Shown: positions 7,453-48,393 of the stretch, in pieces
Layout of the letters: each line of letters opens with the position of its first letter
Position numbering within the stretch: the stretch's first letter is position 1
DNA from: Polyangium fumosum
Lineage (GTDB): Bacteria > Myxococcota_A > Polyangia > Polyangiales > Polyangiaceae
Reading direction: 5' to 3'
NCBI RefSeq assembly: GCF_005144585.1
Contig: NZ_SSMQ01000008.1
Span: forward strand, 1 to 64,000
Length of the DNA: 64,000 nt
Made by a program: the position numbers and the translations under genes
Notes under the pieces: generated by a model
Databases searched by the model: none
What the model saw: only the letters and a program-made list of their open reading frames with translations
What the model was told of the DNA's origin: nothing

Positions 7453-7821
7453 GTGGCCTGGTTCTGGGCATTCGTCTTCACGCAGGTCGTCGAGATCCCC
7501 ATTTACGTCTACGGGCTCCGCGTCCGCGTGTACGAGGCGTTCGGCGCGAGCGCGCTGACGCACCCGATCGTCTGGTTCGTCATTCCGAGCCTGTGGGAGC
7601 GCTTCTACCTCGCCGTGTTCGCGCCCCATCCCTCGTTATGGATCTCGCAGACGCCGCGGTACTGGATCATGGTGGTCATCGCCGAGACGTTCGCCGTGAC
7701 CGCGGAGGCCGGATATTTCCGGTTCATTGGTAAGAAAAAGACGCTCGGGTGGGCGTTCGCCGCGAACATGGCGAGCGTCACCCTGGGATTTGCGAGCCGC
7801 GCGCTCTTCGATTGGCCGTGA
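7453..7821 (+). CDS. Small integral membrane protein
   Basis: This 122-residue protein starts with GTG three bases after the previous stop. It has three to four hydrophobic segments (residues 2-20, 38-55, 70-88 and 98-115) and conserved-looking aromatic and charged residues around FTQVVEIPIYVYGL. I do not recognise a named family. Its TGA overlaps the GTG of the following WD40 kinase (GTGA), so translation of the two is coupled and the protein may act with the kinase at the membrane. Function unknown. Confidence 0.78.
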   Translation: MAWFWAFVFTQVVEIPIYVYGLRVRVYEAFGASALTHPIVWFVIPSLWERFYLAVFAPHPSLWISQTPRYWIMVVIAETFAVTAEAGYFRFIGKKKTLGWAFAANMASVTLGFASRALFDWP

Positions 7822-10800
7822 CCGCCGGACGCACGCTCCCCTCCCCGCTCGAAGCCGCGACGCTCGATCCCGCGGAGGGGAGACGTGTCCGGCCCGGCAC
7901 GCTCGGCGAGACGCTGCCCACGCCCCCGATGGAGACGCTCATCGCGCGCACCGGGAGGGACGAGGCCGACGACGAGGAAGCCCCGGAGAGCGCCGCCGCG
8001 CGGCGCATGCGCGTCGTCGATCCAGAGACGTACGCGGTGGAATCGGAGGTCGCAAAAGGCGGCATTGGCCGGATTCTGCGGGCGTACGACACGCACCTCG
8101 ACCGCCCCGTCGCGCTGAAGGAGCTCATCACGCGGGATCCTCAGACCGAGGAGCGCTTCATTCGCGAGGCGCGGATCACGGCGCGGCTGCAACACCCCTC
8201 GATCGTGCCGCTCTACGAGGCGGGCGTCTGGCCCTCGGGCGAGCCGTTTTTCGCGATGAAGCTCGTCTCCGGGCGCTCGCTCGACCATTTCATCGAGGAG
8301 GCGAGCACGCTCGATCAGCGCCTCGTCCTGCTCCCCCACGTGCTCGCGGTCGCCGAGGCGATGGCGTATGCGCATAACGAGCGCATCATTCACCGCGACC
8401 TCAAGCCGCAAAACATCTTGCTCGGTCCGTTTGGCGAGACCGTGGTCATCGATTGGGGGCTCGCGAAGGACCTCGACGAGGAATCCCCCGAGCCGTCACG
8501 TACCTCGTCGCTGCCGCCGCAGCGATCGTCGTCGCCGTCCTCGCCGGGATCGATGGCGCTCACCGTGCTCGGCGTGGTCATGGGCACGCCCGCGTACATG
8601 CCGCCCGAGCAGGCGGCGGGGCGCAGCGTGGACGAGCGTGCCGACGTGTATGCGATCGGCGCCATTCTCTATCATCTGCTCGCGGGAAAAGCTTCCTACG
8701 AGGGCCAATACCCGATGGAGATTGTCCGGTGCGTGCTGCGCGAGCCGCCGGTGCCCATCGAAAAACTCCAGCCGGGCGTGCCGCGCGATCTCGTGACGAT
8801 CGTGCAAAAGGCCATGGCACGCGCGAAGGCCGAGCGATATCGGACGGCCGGGGAACTCGCCGCGGATCTGCGCCGGTTCCAGACGGGGCAGATTGTCCAG
8901 GCGCACCATTATTCGGCCCGCGAGCGGCTCCTCCGGTTCGCCCGTCGCCATCGCGCGACGCTTCTCATGGCGTTCGCCGCGCTCGCCGCGCTCGCGGTCA
9001 CGGGCGCGCTCGCCGTCGGGAGGGTCCTCGACGCGCGTGACGAGGCGCGGCGCGAGCGCGATAGGGCCGCGGAGGCCGAGCGGCGAGAATCGGAGCGCGC
9101 CGATACGCTCACGCTCGTCGAGGCGCGCGCGGCGGCTTCGCGGGATCCCCTCGAAGCGCTGGCCTGGCTCAAGACATTGTCGTCTTCGTTCCGGGGGCAC
9201 CGGCGCAAGCGGCTCGTGGCTGCGGACGCCATTGCGAAGGGCGTCCCGATGCTGCTGCGTGGGCACGCGGCGGGCATCAACCGCGCGTCGTTTTCGCCGG
9301 AGGGCCGGTTCGTGGCCTCGTCGAGCGACGACCGAACCGTCCGCCTCTGGGACCTGACCACGACCCAAGCGCGCGTGCTCGAAGGGCATACCGACGAGGT
9401 CTGGGAAGCGGCATTCTCGCCGGACGGCGCATGGCTCGCGAGCCGGAGCAAAGACACCACGGTGCGGCTCTGGAGCGTGAAGACGAGCGAAATTAAGGTC
9501 CTCGCGGGACACGCGGCGCCGCTCGGCGCGATTCATTATTTCCGGGACGGGCAGCGCATGGCCTCCCGGGGCCGCGACGGCTCGGTCTGCTTGTGGGACA
9601 TCGCCTCGGGGAAATGCAAACCCGTGTGGCCTGCGGGCGGCGCGGAGCGAAAGCTCGCCATCTCCCCGGACGAACGCACCCTCGCCTTCGTCTCGGCAGG
9701 CTCGCTCGTTCTTTTGGATGTCGACGCCGGGACCGAGCGCCACTTCGAGGGCGAGGCGCACGAGCCGGAGGTGCTCACGTTCTCCCCCGACGGTGCCCTC
9801 GTGGCCACGGGTGATCAAAAAGGCATCGTTCGGTTGTGGGACATTGCGACGGGTGTGTCGAGGCGCCTCGAAGGTCATACCGGGAAGGTGCGAGCCGTCG
9901 TATTTCTCCCGGATTCTTCCCGCCTCGTGTCGTCGGGACTCGACCGCACCGTGCGAATCTGGGACGTCCACACGGGCGAGGCGCGCGTGCTCAGGGGACA
10001 CGAAGGATCGGTCTATACCGTGGCCGTGTCTCCGGATGGAAAGACCTTGATGACGGGCGCCGCCGACCAGACGGCGCGGGTGTGGGACGTGGCCTCCGGC
10101 ATGTCGCGCACCTTGCGGGGCCCGAACGACTCGATCTCGGATGTCGAGTTTTCCCGCGACGGCAAACGTGCGCTCGTCGCGAGTTACGACAACAGCCTGC
10201 GCGTCTATTCGCTCGAAGCCTTGCGCGACCGCGTCATGGCCGTGCACGAGCGCGCGGCGCGCGTGATCGCCATCTCCCCCGACGGAGCATGTATCGCCTC
10301 GGGCGGCGCCGACGGGACGGTCGTTTGGACAAACCTCGCGGACGGCACCCCGCGGACGCTCGGCCAGCACGCGGGCGACGTGCATGATGTCGCGTTTTCC
10401 CCCGACGGCACGGCCATCGCCTCGGCCGGCGCGGACGGCCGCGTGCGTATCTTCAGCACGCAGGGCGCGGCGATCTCGTTCGACGCCCACGAGGGCGCAG
10501 CAAATCGCGTGCTGTTTTCGCCCGACGGCGCGCGCGTCGTCTCGGCCGGCGCGGACGGGGTCCTTCGGAGTTTTCCCGTGAAGGGCGGCGAGGGAAAGGT
10601 CCTCGCGCGGCATTCGACCAAGGCCACCGCGCTCGCGTTTTCCCCGGACGGCGCGCGAATCGCGTATTCCTTCGCCGATGGCCGGGTCGTCTTGCACGAG
10701 GTGACGACGGGCCGGGAGACGGTCCTCGCCGGCCACCACGACGCGGTCCACGTGCTCGTGTTTTCCCCGGACGGCGGCCTGCTCGTGTCCGGCGGAATGG

Positions 10801-11297
10801 ACCATTCCGTGCGGCTTTGGGACGTGCCCCAGGGCGCCCTGCGCCACGTGATCGACGCCGCGGGGACAGGGCTCACGCGGCTCGTGTTTTTCCCGGACGG
10901 CAAACGATTCGCGACGCTCGGCGGCGAGGCCAACGTAAAACTCTGGAGCGCGGTGGATGGCCGGCTGCTCGACGTCTTGCGCGGCTATCGAGGCGTCGTC
11001 GAAGGGCTCGACGTCTCGCCCGAGGGCAGCCGACTCGCGACGGCGGGCGCGGACGGCATCGTGCGGTTATGGGACCTCGAAGCGGGCGAGAGCCGGCTGC
11101 TCGAAGGCCACGAGGGCAACGTCCTCGCCGTCCGGTTCGCCGAAGGAGGCCGCTCCCTCGTGACGGCCGGAAAAGACCGAACCGTGCGGCGCTGGATGGA
11201 CGATCTCCCCATGGAAGCGGCGAGCCTGCGCGCCTTCGTCGAGGCCGCGACGCCGGAGACGGTCACGTCGCTCGGCATTCACTCGGACAAACGCTGA
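7818..11297 (+). CDS. Ser/Thr kinase with C-terminal WD40 repeats
   Basis: Using the GTG at 7818, which overlaps the upstream stop, the protein has 1159 residues. The kinase domain (about residues 72-345) has a Gly-rich loop (AKGGIGR), ATP Lys101 in PVALKELI, HRDLKPQN and GTPAYMPPEQAAG; the DFG motif is written DWG, a tolerated variant. One membrane helix follows (about residues 378-400, LLMAFAALAALAVTGALAV), then a helical linker and roughly 14 WD40 repeats (about 475-1130) with the pattern GHxxxVxxVxFSPDGxxLVSxGxDxTVRLWD. The outer part should be one or two beta-propellers, probably a protein-binding sensor. An upstream ATG at 7749 lies inside the preceding gene in another frame and is rejected. 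Confidence 0.94.
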   Translation: MTAGRTLPSPLEAATLDPAEGRRVRPGTLGETLPTPPMETLIARTGRDEADDEEAPESAAARRMRVVDPETYAVESEVAKGGIGRILRAYDTHLDRPVALKELITRDPQTEERFIREARITARLQHPSIVPLYEAGVWPSGEPFFAMKLVSGRSLDHFIEEASTLDQRLVLLPHVLAVAEAMAYAHNERIIHRDLKPQNILLGPFGETVVIDWGLAKDLDEESPEPSRTSSLPPQRSSSPSSPGSMALTVLGVVMGTPAYMPPEQAAGRSVDERADVYAIGAILYHLLAGKASYEGQYPMEIVRCVLREPPVPIEKLQPGVPRDLVTIVQKAMARAKAERYRTAGELAADLRRFQTGQIVQAHHYSARERLLRFARRHRATLLMAFAALAALAVTGALAVGRVLDARDEARRERDRAAEAERRESERADTLTLVEARAAASRDPLEALAWLKTLSSSFRGHRRKRLVAADAIAKGVPMLLRGHAAGINRASFSPEGRFVASSSDDRTVRLWDLTTTQARVLEGHTDEVWEAAFSPDGAWLASRSKDTTVRLWSVKTSEIKVLAGHAAPLGAIHYFRDGQRMASRGRDGSVCLWDIASGKCKPVWPAGGAERKLAISPDERTLAFVSAGSLVLLDVDAGTERHFEGEAHEPEVLTFSPDGALVATGDQKGIVRLWDIATGVSRRLEGHTGKVRAVVFLPDSSRLVSSGLDRTVRIWDVHTGEARVLRGHEGSVYTVAVSPDGKTLMTGAADQTARVWDVASGMSRTLRGPNDSISDVEFSRDGKRALVASYDNSLRVYSLEALRDRVMAVHERAARVIAISPDGACIASGGADGTVVWTNLADGTPRTLGQHAGDVHDVAFSPDGTAIASAGADGRVRIFSTQGAAISFDAHEGAANRVLFSPDGARVVSAGADGVLRSFPVKGGEGKVLARHSTKATALAFSPDGARIAYSFADGRVVLHEVTTGRETVLAGHHDAVHVLVFSPDGGLLVSGGMDHSVRLWDVPQGALRHVIDAAGTGLTRLVFFPDGKRFATLGGEANVKLWSAVDGRLLDVLRGYRGVVEGLDVSPEGSRLATAGADGIVRLWDLEAGESRLLEGHEGNVLAVRFAEGGRSLVTAGKDRTVRRWMDDLPMEAASLRAFVEAATPETVTSLGIHSDKR

Positions 11298-11301
11298 TTT
11301 C

Positions 11302-12018
11302 TCAGGCGTCGTGTTGCCCGCGCGGGCGCTTTCGGGGCGGGGGCCCGCCGCCGCCGCCGAAGGACGCCTCGGCGCCCGGCTCGGCCGGCGCCTCGTGGCC
11401 CGTACCGTAGGCGCGCAGGAAGGCGTCGAGGTGCTCGTCAGCGAATTTGTCCCAATCGAGCGGGCGCGCCGTCGTCCCGCCGAGCGGGTGTTGATGCAAA
11501 AGGACGAGCAGCGGCGGCGAGACCAGCGCGAGCGCCATGAGCCGCACGTCGCCCGCGCGAAGTTCGCCCCGCGCCACGTGCCGGGCGAGCCGCGCCTCCA
11601 CGGATTCGAGCGTCGGATCGAGCACTTCGCAGAGGTATTTCGGGCCGAGCGTGGGCTCGCGCAGGCCGCAGGCGATGCCGATCGCGTGCACCTCCCCGAC
11701 GCCGGCCCGGAAGCCGAGCTCCAGATAAAACAAAAACCCTCGGAGCGATGCGCGCACGGGCAAGAGCGGGCCCGTCGCGACCTCCAGCATGTACCTCTGG
11801 CCGCGCTCGTGCCAATGCGAGAGCACCGCCGACACCACGCCCTCGCGCGAGCCGAAATAGTGCCGGAGCGTCGCCACGCTCACCCCCGCGGCCGCCGCCA
11901 TTTCGCGGAAGCTCGCCCGCGGGCCGTCGGGCTCCGAGAGCCGCTTCTGCACGGACGCGACGAGCGACGCGCGCGTCGCCTCGAAGTCCGGGTTGCGTGA
12001 TCCTGCGGGCCTGCCCAT
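11302..12018 (-). CDS. TetR-family transcriptional regulator
   Basis: The first 60 residues form a TetR-type helix-turn-helix: SFREMAAAAGVSVATLRHYF is the recognition region. The ligand-binding half (about 75-220) is unlike any group I can name, and the tail is Gly/Pro/Arg-rich. It is divergent from the Rieske-type gene pair with 136 bp between start codons, the usual arrangement for a local repressor that senses a substrate of the neighbouring enzymes. It ends 4 bp from the end of the convergent WD40 kinase gene. The 9-mer CTAGAACAT lies at 12035-12043 in the intergenic space and again at 12818-12826 before the second Rieske gene; it may be part of an operator, though this is weak evidence. 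Confidence 0.88.
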   Translation of the reverse strand: MGRPAGSRNPDFEATRASLVASVQKRLSEPDGPRASFREMAAAAGVSVATLRHYFGSREGVVSAVLSHWHERGQRYMLEVATGPLLPVRASLRGFLFYLELGFRAGVGEVHAIGIACGLREPTLGPKYLCEVLDPTLESVEARLARHVARGELRAGDVRLMALALVSPPLLVLLHQHPLGGTTARPLDWDKFADEHLDAFLRAYGTGHEAPAEPGAEASFGGGGGPPPRKRPRGQHDA

Positions 12019-12100
12019 CTCGTCGTCCGGAACTCTAGAACATCCATCTTGCAGTTCAAGACTCGGGCGCAGCCGCAGGCACGAGCCCGGCCTGGCCGCC

Positions 12101-12128
12101 TTGACGAACGGGGGAATTTTCCTAGACT
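12101..12128 (+). promoter_or_regulatory. Candidate sigma-70 promoter for the Rieske-type genes
   Basis: TTGACG at 12101-12106 and TAGACT at 12123-12128 are separated by 16 bp, 27 bp before the ATG at 12155. The match is good for a high-GC genome, and the position between the divergent regulator and the pair fits. Transcript ends are not visible from sequence. Confidence 0.45.
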
Positions 12129-12154
12129 CACCGTTCTATAAAATGGAGGCTTCC

Positions 12155-12835
12155 ATGTTCGAGGGCTTCGCGAACGTCTGGACGCCGGTCTTGCCTGCGC
12201 TGGATCTGCGGGAGGAAGCCAGACGCGTACGGGTCGCCGGGGAGCCGATCTTGCTCTTCCGCGATGAGCGCGGGGAGCCCGGGGCGTGTGTCGATCACGC
12301 GTCCTCGGCGCTGCCCGAGGTGATCACGCTACAAGCTCGTCTGCCCGCGCGCGAGGCCCTCGGGCTCGTCTGGATCTTCACGGGCCACGAGGCCCCGGCC
12401 GAGGGTCCGGCGTTGCCTTCGCTCGATCCGGTGCGGCCTCTCGTGGTCCACGCCGAGACCTGGTCCGCGCCGTTCACGCGCGTGATCGAGGCCTTGCTCG
12501 ATCCGGCGAACTTGCCCTTCACATGGGCCCTCGGCGACACGCCCGAAGAGCCCGCGCTCGTGTTTCGCGCGCCCGGCTGCGTCGAGTTGTTTCTCCCGCC
12601 GCGCACGCCCGAAAAGCGCACGCTGCTCTACTGTTTCCCCGAGACCGAAGGGACGACGCGTGTCCTTTTCTGCACTACACACGCGCCGGGCGAGGGCGAC
12701 GTTCCCACCTGGATCACCGAGTATCTTGCGGCGACGGATCTCGCCCGCGAGCGTGCCTCCGCGGCCGTGGCCCCCGCGATCTCGCCGAGCGAGGGCTTGA
12801 CAACCGCCTCCTGTTTTCTAGAACATTTGGTGTAA
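12155..12835 (+). CDS. Degenerate Rieske-oxygenase-like protein lacking metal ligands
   Basis: The start MFEGFANVWTPV is chosen because GGAGG lies 5 bp upstream and the next gene begins MFESFANVWTPV. The two proteins align over residues 1-45, then this one has lost about 50 residues that carry the two Rieske [2Fe-2S] motifs (C-x-H and C-x2-H). The mononuclear iron motif of the neighbour, DTPHLPYIH, is here DPANLPFTW, so both histidines are gone. The remaining fold segments (LGLVWIFTGHEAPAEG, helical catalytic-domain core) are kept and the frame is intact over 226 residues. It is therefore probably not an oxygenase; a structural or regulatory partner of the next protein, or an early pseudogene, are the options. 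Confidence 0.8.
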   Translation: MFEGFANVWTPVLPALDLREEARRVRVAGEPILLFRDERGEPGACVDHASSALPEVITLQARLPAREALGLVWIFTGHEAPAEGPALPSLDPVRPLVVHAETWSAPFTRVIEALLDPANLPFTWALGDTPEEPALVFRAPGCVELFLPPRTPEKRTLLYCFPETEGTTRVLFCTTHAPGEGDVPTWITEYLAATDLARERASAAVAPAISPSEGLTTASCFLEHLV

Positions 12836-12847
12836 CAAAACAGGAGG
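12807..12847 (+). promoter_or_regulatory. Inverted repeat masking the ribosome binding site of the Rieske gene
   Basis: CCTCCTGTTTT (12807-12817), in the last codons of the degenerate paralogue, is a perfect 11-bp inverted copy of AAAACAGGAGG (12837-12847), which contains the Shine-Dalgarno GGAGG of the following gene (GTG at 12853). The 19-base loop holds the upstream stop codon (TAA 12833-12835). In RNA this would hide the ribosome binding site until ribosomes translate the end of the first gene, a classical translational-coupling arrangement. The two arms are directly visible; the regulatory role is inferred. Confidence 0.6.
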
Positions 12848-12852
12848 CAAAC

Positions 12853-13902
12853 GTGTTCGAGAGCTTCGCCAACGTGTGGACTCCGGTCATCACGGCCAAA
12901 GAGCTCAGGAAGAAGCCGCTTTCGGTGAAGGTGGCCGGCGAGACGATCGCCCTCTTCCGGGATGGAAAGGGCGGCGTGGGCGCGCTCCTCGATCGATGTC
13001 CGCATCGCGGCGTCGCGCTCTCGCTGGGTCAGGTCGATGCGGACGGCTGTCTCGCATGTCCTTTTCACGGCTGGTCCTTTCAGAAAGACGGCGCCTGCGC
13101 GAAGATCCCCCTGAACACCGTCGCCCCGGAGAAACGCGCGCGTTATGGCGCGACGGCCGTCCCCGTGCGGGAAATCGGCGGGCTCGTCTGGATCTTCACG
13201 GGCCCGGATCCCGCCGGCACGGAGCCCGAGCCGCCGCCCGCGCTGGTCGAGCCGGGGTGGCACGTCGGGTACACCCAGGAGATCTGGAAGACGCACTGGA
13301 CGCGGGCCATGGAGAACATGCTCGACACGCCGCATTTGCCTTACATCCACGGCAAGAGCATCGGCAAGGACGTCAGGAAAAAGCTCCGACCGGACACGAC
13401 CCTCGAGATGCGCATCGAGCCTGCTCCCTTCGGCGGCCTCGTTTACGCAAAATGGGATTACGAGGCGGAGGAGAAGCAGATTTTGAAGTGGCGCAAGCCG
13501 AACGCGATGGAGCTCCAGATCATGAACGAGCCCAAGCGCCGGATGTGCATCCAGGTGTATTGCATTCCGGTCGACGAGGCGCACACGAAGATGATGCTCA
13601 TCTCGGCGCGGACGTTCTTCGGCGCGGAGTTCATCACGTGGTTCGCCACGAAGTTCAACAACATCCTCGGTGAGGATCGCGAAGTGCTGGAGACCTCGAA
13701 CCCGCCCGAGGTGCCGCCGCCGGGCGAGGAGCCGTCCGTCGCGACCGACGCGCCGACGCTGTTTTTCCGAAAGTATTACTTCCGCGAGCTGCGCAGCTCC
13801 ACGTCGACGCTCGTGCCCACGGGCCGACTCGTCCGCAGGCCCGATGCTCAGCCCGAAGCCGAGGAAGCGGGCATGCCCGACGGCGCCGCCGTCGTCCACT
13901 GA
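12853..13902 (+). CDS. Rieske [2Fe-2S] non-heme iron oxygenase
   Basis: This 349-residue protein has an N-terminal Rieske domain with Cys49-Pro-His51 and Cys69-Pro-Phe-His72 (CPHRG and CPFHGW), and a C-terminal catalytic domain with Asp158, His161 and His166 in MLDTPHLPYIHG. This is the alpha subunit type seen in aromatic ring or Pao/VanA-like monooxygenases; the substrate is not predictable. The GTG start has GGAGG 5 bp upstream, and the start matches the paralogue in front. Electron transfer partners (ferredoxin reductase) are not encoded nearby. The C-terminal 25 residues are Pro/Glu/Ala-rich and unlike the family. Expression is probably under the divergent TetR protein and coupled to the upstream gene. 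Confidence 0.92.
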   Translation: MFESFANVWTPVITAKELRKKPLSVKVAGETIALFRDGKGGVGALLDRCPHRGVALSLGQVDADGCLACPFHGWSFQKDGACAKIPLNTVAPEKRARYGATAVPVREIGGLVWIFTGPDPAGTEPEPPPALVEPGWHVGYTQEIWKTHWTRAMENMLDTPHLPYIHGKSIGKDVRKKLRPDTTLEMRIEPAPFGGLVYAKWDYEAEEKQILKWRKPNAMELQIMNEPKRRMCIQVYCIPVDEAHTKMMLISARTFFGAEFITWFATKFNNILGEDREVLETSNPPEVPPPGEEPSVATDAPTLFFRKYYFRELRSSTSTLVPTGRLVRRPDAQPEAEEAGMPDGAAVVH

Positions 13903-13962
13903 CCTCACCCGCACATTCTTCATGTCCGGGGCGCCCGGAATGCGCTATCTCCCGGGCTGCCC

Positions 13963-15846
13963 GTGAGCCCGCCTGCCCTCGAACAAACCTCGAATCCGCT
14001 CCGCCGCGCCACCATCCCGCATTTGCCCGCGCTCGACGGCCTGCGAGGCCTCGCCGTGCTCGGCGTGCTCCTGTTCCACGATGGCAGGCTCGACGGCGGG
14101 TATCTCGGCGTCGACCTGTTCTTCGTCCTGTCCGGATACCTCATCCACTCGCTGCTGCTCGCAGAGTGGGCCAAGGCCGGGACGATCGATCTCAAGGCTT
14201 TCTGGGTTCGCCGCGCGCGCCGCCTCTTCCCGGCGCTCCTCGCGCTCCTGCCCGTGGTCGCGGCGTACGCGCAAAAGCTCGCGAAGCCCGAAGAGCTCGA
14301 TCGGATCCGCAAGGACGGGCTCGCCACGCTGGCCTACGTGGCGAACTGGCGCGCGATTTTCTCGGGGCGGAGCTACTGGGACATGTTCCAGGTGCCCTCG
14401 CCGCTCGAACACACCTGGAGCCTCGCGATCGAGGAACAGTTTTACGTCGTCTGGCCGCTGCTCGCGTTCGGCGTGCTCTACCTGTCGCGGGGCTCGCGGC
14501 GCGTGATGCTCGCCGTGTCGCTCGGGCTCGCGGTGGTCTCGGGCGCGGCGATGGTTTGGCTGGGCAACCGGACGGACACGTCACGGGCCTACATGGGCAC
14601 GGATACACGCGGCGTGGCCATCCTGCTCGGCGCCTCGCTCGCGTGCCTGATGGCCGAGCGCGGGACGTCGAAGGACAAGCAGGTGGTGCGGGCGCTCGAT
14701 GGGCTCGGCGTGCTCGCGGCGATCGGGCTCGCGCTCGCCTGGGTGAAGCTCGACGGGCAGAATCCGCTGCTCTACCGCGGAGGATTTTTCGGGACGGAGC
14801 TTTGCGTGCTCGTGCTCATCGCCTGCGCGGCGCACGGCGAGCAGAGCCTCGTGGCGCGGGCGCTCGCGTTCCGCCCGTTCGCGTGGGTGGGGCTCGTGAG
14901 CTACGGGCTCTACCTCTGGCACTGGCCGATCTACGTGGTGCTGCGGCCGGAGCGGATTGGTTTGTCCGGGATCGGGCTCTCGGCGCTGCGGTATACGGCG
15001 ACGTTCGCGGTGGCGTTGATCTCCTACCATTTCCTGGAGCAGCCGATCCGCAAGCGCGGCGCGCCATTCAGGCGACCGGCGGTGATGCTCTCGTCGTCGG
15101 TGGCGCTCTGCATCGGCGCTCTGCTCGTCGGCACGCAGAGCCGGAGGGTGATGCAGATCGGGCTGCAGCTCTTGCCGTGGCCGGAGACCGTGCCGCCGGG
15201 CACGGTGAAGATCCTGATCGTGGGCGACTCCGTGGCGCAGGCGCTCGGCGAGCGAATGAAAGCGGTGCAGAGCGGCACGGGGGCTTTCGTGATCGAGCGG
15301 GGGACGCCCGATTGCAGCATCATGGAGGGGACGCTGCCGACGCGCTCGTTGACGAACGTGCCACACGACGGCGGCGATTGCGACGCGCGCTGGGGGAGCG
15401 ACGTGGACGAGATGCACCCGGACGTGACGCTGGTCGTGCTCGGCGGCGGGTATTTCGCGCGGGTGGAGGTCGAGGGGCGCTGGCAGCACATCTGCGAGCC
15501 GGGCTGGGACGCGGCGTATGCGAAGGAGCTCGGGGGCAAGCTCGCGATGCTCGCGGACAAGGGCGGCCGGGTCTACGTGGCGCGCGTGCCTTATCCGGTG
15601 GGCGGATGGCAAAAGCCGACGCTGAACGCGCAGGTCGATTGCTACAACACGCTGATCGAAAAGGCAGTGCAAGGGGAGCCGCGGATCCACCTGCTGGACC
15701 TCGCGGCGCACCTCTGCCCCGGCGGGCAATGCACGCTCATGAGTGAAGGCGAGCCGATCCGGCCGGATGGAATGCATTTCGGGGGCCCAGGGGCGAAGGA
15801 GATCGCGCGATGGGTAATCGAGCAGGTCAAAGAACCGCGGCGGTAG
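13963..15846 (+). CDS. Acyltransferase 3 family membrane protein with SGNH domain (OafA/YrhL-like)
   Basis: The first 380 residues are an acyltransferase-3 membrane domain of about 10-11 helices, with the signature LDGLRGLAVLGVLLFH, the R/K-rich loop FWVRRARRLFPALL and EHTWSLAIEEQFYVVWP. The last 220 residues form a periplasmic SGNH-type domain with ILIVGDSVAQAL (block I, catalytic Ser in GDS) and DGMHFGG (Asp-x-x-His). Such two-part proteins O-acetylate envelope polysaccharides, LPS or secondary metabolites. It starts with GTG at 13963, 60 bp after the Rieske gene. Its end overlaps the next gene by 37 bp, implying coexpression. Confidence 0.93.
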   Translation: MSPPALEQTSNPLRRATIPHLPALDGLRGLAVLGVLLFHDGRLDGGYLGVDLFFVLSGYLIHSLLLAEWAKAGTIDLKAFWVRRARRLFPALLALLPVVAAYAQKLAKPEELDRIRKDGLATLAYVANWRAIFSGRSYWDMFQVPSPLEHTWSLAIEEQFYVVWPLLAFGVLYLSRGSRRVMLAVSLGLAVVSGAAMVWLGNRTDTSRAYMGTDTRGVAILLGASLACLMAERGTSKDKQVVRALDGLGVLAAIGLALAWVKLDGQNPLLYRGGFFGTELCVLVLIACAAHGEQSLVARALAFRPFAWVGLVSYGLYLWHWPIYVVLRPERIGLSGIGLSALRYTATFAVALISYHFLEQPIRKRGAPFRRPAVMLSSSVALCIGALLVGTQSRRVMQIGLQLLPWPETVPPGTVKILIVGDSVAQALGERMKAVQSGTGAFVIERGTPDCSIMEGTLPTRSLTNVPHDGGDCDARWGSDVDEMHPDVTLVVLGGGYFARVEVEGRWQHICEPGWDAAYAKELGGKLAMLADKGGRVYVARVPYPVGGWQKPTLNAQVDCYNTLIEKAVQGEPRIHLLDLAAHLCPGGQCTLMSEGEPIRPDGMHFGGPGAKEIARWVIEQVKEPRR

Positions 15847-33786: not shown

Positions 33787-34002
33787 CCCGGAGGGCGCGG
33801 ACAGGCGCCGGAGGGCTCCGAAACCCCCTCCCAGGGTCGTACACAGGTGCCGGAGGGCTCCGAAACCCCCCTCCCAGGGTCGTACACAGGCGCGCCGAGG
33901 CTCCGAAACCCCCCCTCCCAGGGTCGTACACAGGCGCCCAAGGCTCCGAAACCCCCCTCCCAGGGTCGTACACAGGCGCCCGAGGGCTCCGAAACCCCCA
34001 TT
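33787..34002. repeat. 43-bp tandem repeat array
   Basis: GGGTCGTACACAGG starts at 33834, 33877, 33921 and 33963 (period 42-44 bp), each followed by a GC-rich arm ending GGCTCCGAAACCCCC; a degenerate fifth copy precedes them. In the first two units CGGAGGGCTCCG is a small hairpin. A single diverged unit occurs again at 35228-35262, directly before the duplicated leader. The array lies just upstream of the third lipoprotein gene. Confidence 0.85.
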
Positions 34003-48075: not shown

Positions 48076-48393
48076 AGGTCCAAGGACCTCCGACCAGAGG
48101 TCGGCGACCTCCTACGCAAGGTCGGCGACCTCCGACCAGAGTTTGGCGACCTCCTACGCAAGGTCGGCGACCTCCTACGCAAGGTCGGCGACCTCCGACC
48201 AGAGGTCCAACGACCTCCGACCAGAGGTTGGCGACCTCCGACCAGAGGTCCAACGACCTCCGACCAGAGGTTGGCGACCTCCTACGCAAGGTCGGCGACC
48301 TCCGACCAGAGGTTGGCGACCTCCGACCAGAGGTCGGCGACCTCCGACCAGAGGTCGGCGACCTCCTCCACAAGGTCGGCGATCTCCTCGAAG
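48076..48393. repeat. 21-bp tandem repeat array, 15 units
   Basis: Fifteen units of 21 bp (three of 22 bp) follow one another without spacers. The core is AGGTCGGCGACCTCC followed by either GACCAG or TACGCA. Each unit holds the near-palindrome GGTCGGCGACC, and neighbouring units allow GACCTC/GAGGTC pairing, so both DNA and RNA can fold. 21 bp equals two helical turns, which would set every site on the same face of the helix. It lies between the convergent lipoprotein and DMT transporter genes. Direct units without spacers exclude a CRISPR array. Confidence 0.92.

Follow-up and report, generated by a model that had tools for sequence, protein, structure and literature searches.

A short paralogue of a Rieske oxygenase, lacking all metal ligands, is retained beside its intact neighbour in Polyangium

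Rieske oxygenases (ROs) are studied as machines whose subunits pass electrons to the next subunit. Why, then, would a bacterium keep, directly beside the gene of an intact RO, a short relative of that gene from which every metal ligand has disappeared? The question is raised by a locus in a stretch of 64,000 nucleotides (the window) of the 13-Mb genome of a member of Polyangium, a genus of the Myxococcota. Polyangium species are soil bacteria. An earlier note, made from the letters of the window alone, had pointed to the short gene and had argued that it was kept for a non-catalytic role. Here we describe what the short protein has lost, how its gene is distributed and selected, and which roles may be considered for it.

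The short protein and its lost metal sites

The genes and protein sites in question are the following (strand after the coordinates, basis in parentheses).

11302-12018, minus: divergent gene of a TetR/AefR-type regulator, which lies beside the RO locus in each of the six Polyangium genomes as well as in two further genomes, G036 and G101 (synteny, family scan)
12155-12835, plus: short paralogue of an RO alpha subunit, metal ligands all gone (open reading frame, alignments, dN/dS)
12296-12343, plus: junction in codons 48-63 of the short gene where the C-x-H and C-x2-H motifs have been deleted, a net 40 residues (joint and profile alignments)
12500-12526, plus: DPANLPFTW, residues 116-124, counterpart of DTPHLPYIH; N119 and W124 replace both iron histidines, and Asp116 is kept (alignment)
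12749-12751, plus: Glu199, aligned to Asp275 of the intact RO, the presumed third iron ligand; invariant in all five short proteins (alignment)
12853-13902, plus: intact RO alpha subunit, 349 residues, GTG start, presumed ligands complete (alignments, Pfam)

The short gene is an open reading frame that begins with an ATG at 12155, ends with a stop codon at 12835, is preceded by GGAGG, and encodes 226 residues as compared with 349 in the intact neighbour; its coordinates had been given exactly in the earlier note, which also called its frame and ribosome binding site intact. As had also been noticed, the protein begins like its neighbour (MFEGFANVWTPVL in the short protein and MFESFANVWTPVI in the intact RO, whose first codon, GTG, is read as M), with 55% identity over residues 1-49. 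When profiles of the five short proteins and of eleven intact ROs were compared by means of hhalign, 201 columns were aligned with a probability of 99.9 and an E value of 3e-32. Because the match covers this many columns at such an E value, the kinship is not a matter of chance, and the homology extends over both domains of an RO alpha subunit. With 13.6 bits, the short protein misses the gathering cut-off of Pfam model PF00355 (20.3 bits), and all five short proteins match this model at E ≤ 1 (best E 0.0078). The intact RO scores 77.6 bits with PF00355 and 50.8 bits with PF19112 (VanA_C). An artefact of sequencing or annotation in a single genome was ruled out, as the gene is carried by five genomes.

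The absence of both Rieske motifs, which had been read from the sequence together with a loss of about 50 residues, is confirmed by the alignments, but the length is not, as the net loss is 40 residues: D47 to P64 comprises 18 residues in the short protein, whereas D47 to P104 comprises 58 in its neighbour. In a 24-row joint alignment, the deleted motifs are the counterparts of C49-x-H51 and C69-x2-H72 in the intact RO, and these [2Fe-2S] ligands are missing from all five short proteins. The mononuclear iron site, which comprises two histidines and one acidic ligand, has fared no better. The change from DTPHLPYIH to DPANLPFTW is present as described, N119 and W124 stand for H161 and H166 of the intact RO in the same alignment, and N119, W124, and E199 are identical in all five short proteins. 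A glutamate could in principle bind a metal; both histidines, however, are gone. Beyond what had been noticed before, the third ligand is altered, and the short protein also lacks the 34 residues right after the iron motif and the C-terminal part beyond the third ligand. On the basis of RO structures, we take C49, H51, C69, H72, H161, H166, and D275 of the intact RO to be the metal ligands, an assumption that is backed by the invariance of all seven positions in eleven intact relatives.

Distribution, descent, and selection

A search for the same pair in other genomes, as the earlier note had proposed, revealed a short gene together with an intact RO gene in five of the six Polyangium genomes. 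The two genes are adjacent in all five carriers, and the short gene was never seen alone. Full-length short proteins were confined to these five genomes in searches of 59 relatives, 108 genomes of the family, and 317 genomes of the class (each count includes the window's own genome), and the other matches in the family and class searches were partial. The class search, which used a profile of the short protein at E ≤ 1e-6, gave matches in 27 genomes, five of them full-length and all five in Polyangium; nine first-look candidates were scored per genome, a setting at which a distant case could slip by. A contig scan that rests on two peptide patterns found a pattern in 64 stretches and confirmed 11 loci, including two Polyangium loci that match residues 1-226. 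Among the nine remaining loci, eight match up to residue 122-125 and one (L065) matches over residues 1-213 at 26%; loci L064-L071 and L063 carry an intact Rieske motif, and L064-L071 are part of the tree and the alignment. A wide family of metal-stripped short proteins was not found in the contig, family, or class searches.

The genomes also provide a glimpse of the locus before and after the short gene. In G036 and G101, the TetR and RO genes adjoin with 145 and 125 bp between them, which is likely the ancestral state. In the Polyangium genome without a short gene, G002, the gap between the two genes is 319 bp, and about 110 bp within it match the middle of the short gene. Since this match no longer lies in one frame, the short gene has been lost in G002, leaving a relic. 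In G004, a frameshift near codon 207 alters the last 20 or so residues of the short protein. With a relic in one genome and a changed tail in another, the short gene is retained yet dispensable.

The short proteins form a clade with 100/100 support in the 24-row tree, and together with the ROs of Polyangium, G036, G101, and G008 they are separated from the rest of the tree by a branch with 98/96.6 support. The branch that joins the short clade to the ROs has a length of 2.5 changes per column, which the midpoint root splits into 1.71 and 0.79, whereas the tips have at most 0.28. Because this branch is so long, the exact placement of the clade is uncertain: constraining it with the Polyangium ROs came at no likelihood cost (p-AU 0.509), and constraining it with G036 was also not rejected (p-AU 0.083). 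The duplication lies within the family, in the Polyangiaceae lineage, and is most simply dated to the Polyangium stem.

A dN/dS check, also proposed earlier, gave an omega of 0.186 for the short gene, which is not near 1 (2ΔlnL 114.0 against omega = 1) and is nearly double the value of 0.105 obtained for the intact RO in the same five genomes with the one-ratio codon model. The fit of model M0 to the short gene was based on 200 codons within residues 1-203 and on a fixed five-taxon tree; codons 204-226, which contain the apparent promoter of the next gene, were excluded. By stretch, omega is 0.070 for residues 1-50, 0.259 for 51-95, 0.244 for 96-203, and 0.302 for 125-203, which is nested in the preceding stretch, and all four values lie below 1 (2ΔlnL 16.1-69.8). 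Pairwise maximum-likelihood dN/dS values range from 0.16 to 0.24 for the short gene and from 0.09 to 0.13 for the intact RO, and NG86 counts are higher, at 0.24-0.49 and 0.19-0.33, respectively. Third codon positions are the most variable in 10 of 10 pairs, and the coding indels among the five short genes are multiples of three, except for the 3' frameshift in G004. Of the antisense frames, one is open in four of the five genomes; omega was fitted for the sense frame. Being an average over the genus, omega is compatible with a recent relaxation of constraint.

These results bear on the possibility that the short gene is a useless copy in slow decay that stays open by chance and through GC-rich codon usage, while the promoter of the RO gene preserves its 3' end. 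The relic in G002 and the C-terminal frameshift in G004 are what such decay would leave behind, the short-gene omega does lie above that of the intact RO, and the promoter in the last codons accounts for the conservation found there. However, omega = 1 is rejected for codons 1-203, a region without the promoter part, as well as in each of the four stretches. Neutrality, moreover, predicts stop codons, and in a rough simulation of neutral change all five copies were free of stops in only 29 of 2000 runs; the simulation starts from the present-day sequence with branch lengths rounded from pairwise values, and is meant as a control only. Thus, the idea of a decaying duplicate is already refuted in large part, and we consider it improbable. 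The earlier view that the gene is retained rather than simply decaying is supported by its presence in five of six genomes, by its omega, and by the invariance of N119, W124, and E199. With its catalytic residues lost and its sequence under purifying selection, the short protein is a genus-restricted, selected pseudoenzyme of the RO family, and we estimate the probability that it is a retained and functional one at about 85%.

Locus and control region

The following sites are candidates for the control of the locus.

12034-12043, plus: TCTAGAACAT, upstream of the TetR gene, a candidate for part of a TetR operator (decamer search)
12101-12128, plus: promoter-like site of the short gene, TTGACG-16-TAGACT (scan; one found, mean of 0.0 in shuffles)
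12797-12824, plus: promoter-like site of the intact RO gene, TTGACA-16-TAGAAC, in the final codons of the short gene (read by eye)
12817-12826, plus: second exact copy of TCTAGAACAT, over the -10 element of the intact RO gene, inside the short open reading frame (decamer search)

In all five carriers, the divergent TetR gene is followed by the short gene, the RO gene, and an acyltransferase gene (acyltransferase-SGNH gene), the last three in the same direction. The operon position that had been assigned to the short gene holds as far as adjacency is concerned, but the pair does not look like a plain operon, as each of the two genes has a promoter-like site of its own. The site at 12101-12128 is the sole one listed by the scan within 11900-14050. 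The site at 12797-12824 is absent from the scan, whose rule demands a T at the last -10 position. Its hexamers, TTGACA and TAGAAC, are found in five of the six genomes, including G002, whereas G001 has TTGACG and TAGAGC; five of the six genomes have a 16-nt spacer, and G002, where the short gene has been lost, has one of 17. From their sequences, the short gene and the RO gene appear to stem from a tandem duplication that included the promoter, so that each has a predicted transcription start of its own. Since the predicted RO promoter sits in roughly the last 14 codons of the short gene, their conservation is uninformative with regard to the protein. As for the decamer, the window contains two exact copies, and three copies with at most one mismatch as compared with 0.57 expected. 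Because it was picked after being seen and varies among congeners, it is only a lead to a possible TetR operator.

The close spacing at this junction could also suggest that the short open reading frame is translated as a leader, its translation governing access to, or coupling with, the start of the intact RO. The stop codon of the short gene is followed by the GTG of the RO gene after 17, 17, 17, and 16 nt in four of the five genomes, and the apparent RO promoter lies within the short open reading frame, both as might be expected of a leader. In G004, however, the short distance is lost (52 nt), and a leader would be expected to keep its frame and not its amino acids, whereas the lowest omega, 0.070, is found in the first 50 residues, far from the junction. 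We therefore regard a leader function as very improbable.

The intact RO itself matches the NCBIfam model of 4beta-methylsterol monooxygenase best, but its score of 68.4 bits is so far below the cut-off of 600 that no function was assigned. The GTG start at 12853 is common to the ROs of all six Polyangium genomes. The C-terminal tail EEAGMPDGAA.VH is conserved in all six as well, including that of G002, which has no short gene, and the last 20 residues of ROs from other genera look unlike it. The context of the intact RO in G036, G101, and G008, as judged from open reading frames, revealed no nameable pathway; a TetR gene is present beside the RO in two of these three genomes. Among the seven neighbouring proteins scanned in the window, there was no reductase or GST-like protein of the NdmCDE kind.

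Several other features of the window were observed. The acyltransferase-SGNH open reading frame overlaps the next one on the same strand by 37 bases (15810-15846), if the first start codon is used. Positions 7749-11294 encode a protein of 1182 residues with a protein kinase domain and, after it, many WD40 repeats. Tandem arrays are located at 33801-33999 (43-bp unit, 4.7 copies, 91% matches) and at 48085-48387 (21-bp unit, 14.3 copies). Rfam and tRNA scans of the 64-kb window gave zero matches.

Predicted fold, possible roles, and known systems

AlphaFold2 gave a mean pLDDT of 45.2 with the five short sequences alone, and a mean pLDDT of 70.9 with a pTM of 0.71 with 24 sequences that include RO relatives. 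In ten-residue blocks, the 24-sequence model reaches 78-91 in residues 1-50, 47 in 51-60, 72-89 in 61-120, 49-58 in 121-150 (around the lost iron site), and 32-33 from residue 211 onwards, in the tail. From residue 96, the order of strands (E) and helices (H) is the same in both models, the five-sequence one being of low confidence: E96-103, H107-115, E135-139, E142-145/147, E155/156-162, E168-175, and H183-202. The best 50 matches listed by Foldseek for the 24-sequence model are all ROs, as are the 50 matches listed by VIA-align 2, which was run over 1000 of Foldseek's chains and placed dicamba monooxygenase 3gke first (Z 17.9, rmsd 3.3, 222 residues). Because RO sequences were part of the model's alignment, these matches speak for compatibility with the RO fold more than they provide independent proof of it. 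When the PDB was searched by sequence with the profile of the short proteins, four weak matches were obtained, none of them an RO by name (best E 0.084). The models suggest that the short protein keeps the base of the Rieske barrel, with the cluster-binding loops cut out.

We propose that the locus began with the tandem duplication of a stand-alone, TetR-linked RO gene together with its promoter. The duplicate then lost, in a burst of change, the portion of the Rieske domain that binds the cluster as well as the three iron ligands, and purifying selection has since kept the short gene in five of the six species. The short protein would fold as a trimmed RO subunit, consisting of the Rieske-barrel base and a small, iron-free helix-grip domain, and might bind the intact RO next door, with which it could form a mixed oligomer as a structural or regulatory subunit, or whose activity it could dampen. 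Such a partner role, whether stabilising, allosteric, or dampening, is suggested by a metal-free subunit of the same predicted fold beside the enzyme. The partner would not be essential to the enzyme, since G002 keeps an intact RO without the short gene and the tail is altered in G004. On balance, we tentatively favour the reading that the short protein acts through the intact RO as a non-catalytic partner, at slightly less than even odds.

A separate ligand-binding function would, however, look nearly identical in sequence. The short protein may be a stand-alone ligand-binding protein whose iron-free helix-grip pocket senses, carries, or buffers the substrate or product of the RO, and perhaps it is tied to the signal of the TetR regulator. 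The common order of strands and helices from residue 96 is consistent with this idea, though one of the two models is of low confidence, and so is the TetR gene next door. But the 34 residues after the iron motif, which presumably border the pocket in RO structures, are gone, and constraint is tightest in the N-terminal Rieske-barrel part (omega 0.070) and not in the pocket domain (0.244-0.302). As these N-terminal 50 residues are the most RO-like part of the protein, their constraint may be taken to argue for a fold or interface in common with the RO more than for a role of the pocket alone. A stand-alone pocket protein thus appears unlikely.

If the short protein does act as a partner of the RO, the architecture of these enzymes suggests one way in which it might do so. 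Structurally characterised ROs are consistently described as C3 oligomers, and within these the cluster of a given subunit passes electrons to the iron of its neighbour at a distance of about 12 Å (PMC12445004). A metal-free subunit in an RO trimer would break this cluster-to-iron electron circuit between subunits. Hence, a metal-free alpha-type subunit in mixed trimers or hexamers could set the activity of the enzyme by breaking or gating the electron path, much like a prozyme, although the odds are against this particular mechanism. In the open-licence PMC literature (titles and starts of abstracts, among the matches listed), neither prozyme-like control of an RO nor a metal-free RO paralogue was found, and among those matches the complete loss of both metal sites is without a counterpart.

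The locus clearly illustrates how a duplicate can pass through a burst of change and then come under constraint within one genus, with G002 as a natural loss for comparison. A natural, selected metal-free paralogue beside a working RO would show how the oligomer tolerates or uses a dead subunit. In descent and predicted fold, the short protein resembles RO alpha subunits such as dicamba monooxygenase, guaiacol O-demethylase (7qwt), SxtT/GxtA, and NdmA, but it differs from them in that the Rieske ligands and all three presumed iron ligands are absent and in its length, 226 residues as compared with 349 in the intact neighbour. A closer parallel in one respect is NdmC of the N7-demethylase NdmCDE, described as a non-heme iron monooxygenase whose Rieske domain has moved to NdmD (PMC4408171). 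Like the short protein, NdmC is an RO-type subunit that has no Rieske cluster itself, and it works in a complex; unlike the short protein, which has lost the iron site too, it is reported to keep its iron (PMC4408171). The short protein is therefore not a split RO of the NdmC type.

Outside the RO family, dead paralogues that are kept with an active partner have been described as the prozymes of trypanosomatids (AdoMetDC, PMC5201418; DHS, PMC3663545), and in the bacterial metformin hydrolase MetCaCb the metal cluster is described only in MetCa (PMC11271267). The short gene is likewise kept with an active paralogue, adjacent to it in all five carriers. However, these proteins belong to unrelated enzyme families, and complex formation, which according to these reports has been demonstrated there, is inferred in the present case. 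The reports further describe the dead partner as needed, whereas the short gene is dispensable in at least one Polyangium. The beta subunits of alpha3beta3 ROs are also non-catalytic, and they support the RO hexamer (PMC12445004). They are not described there as derived from alpha subunits, whereas the short protein is homologous to an alpha subunit over most of its length.
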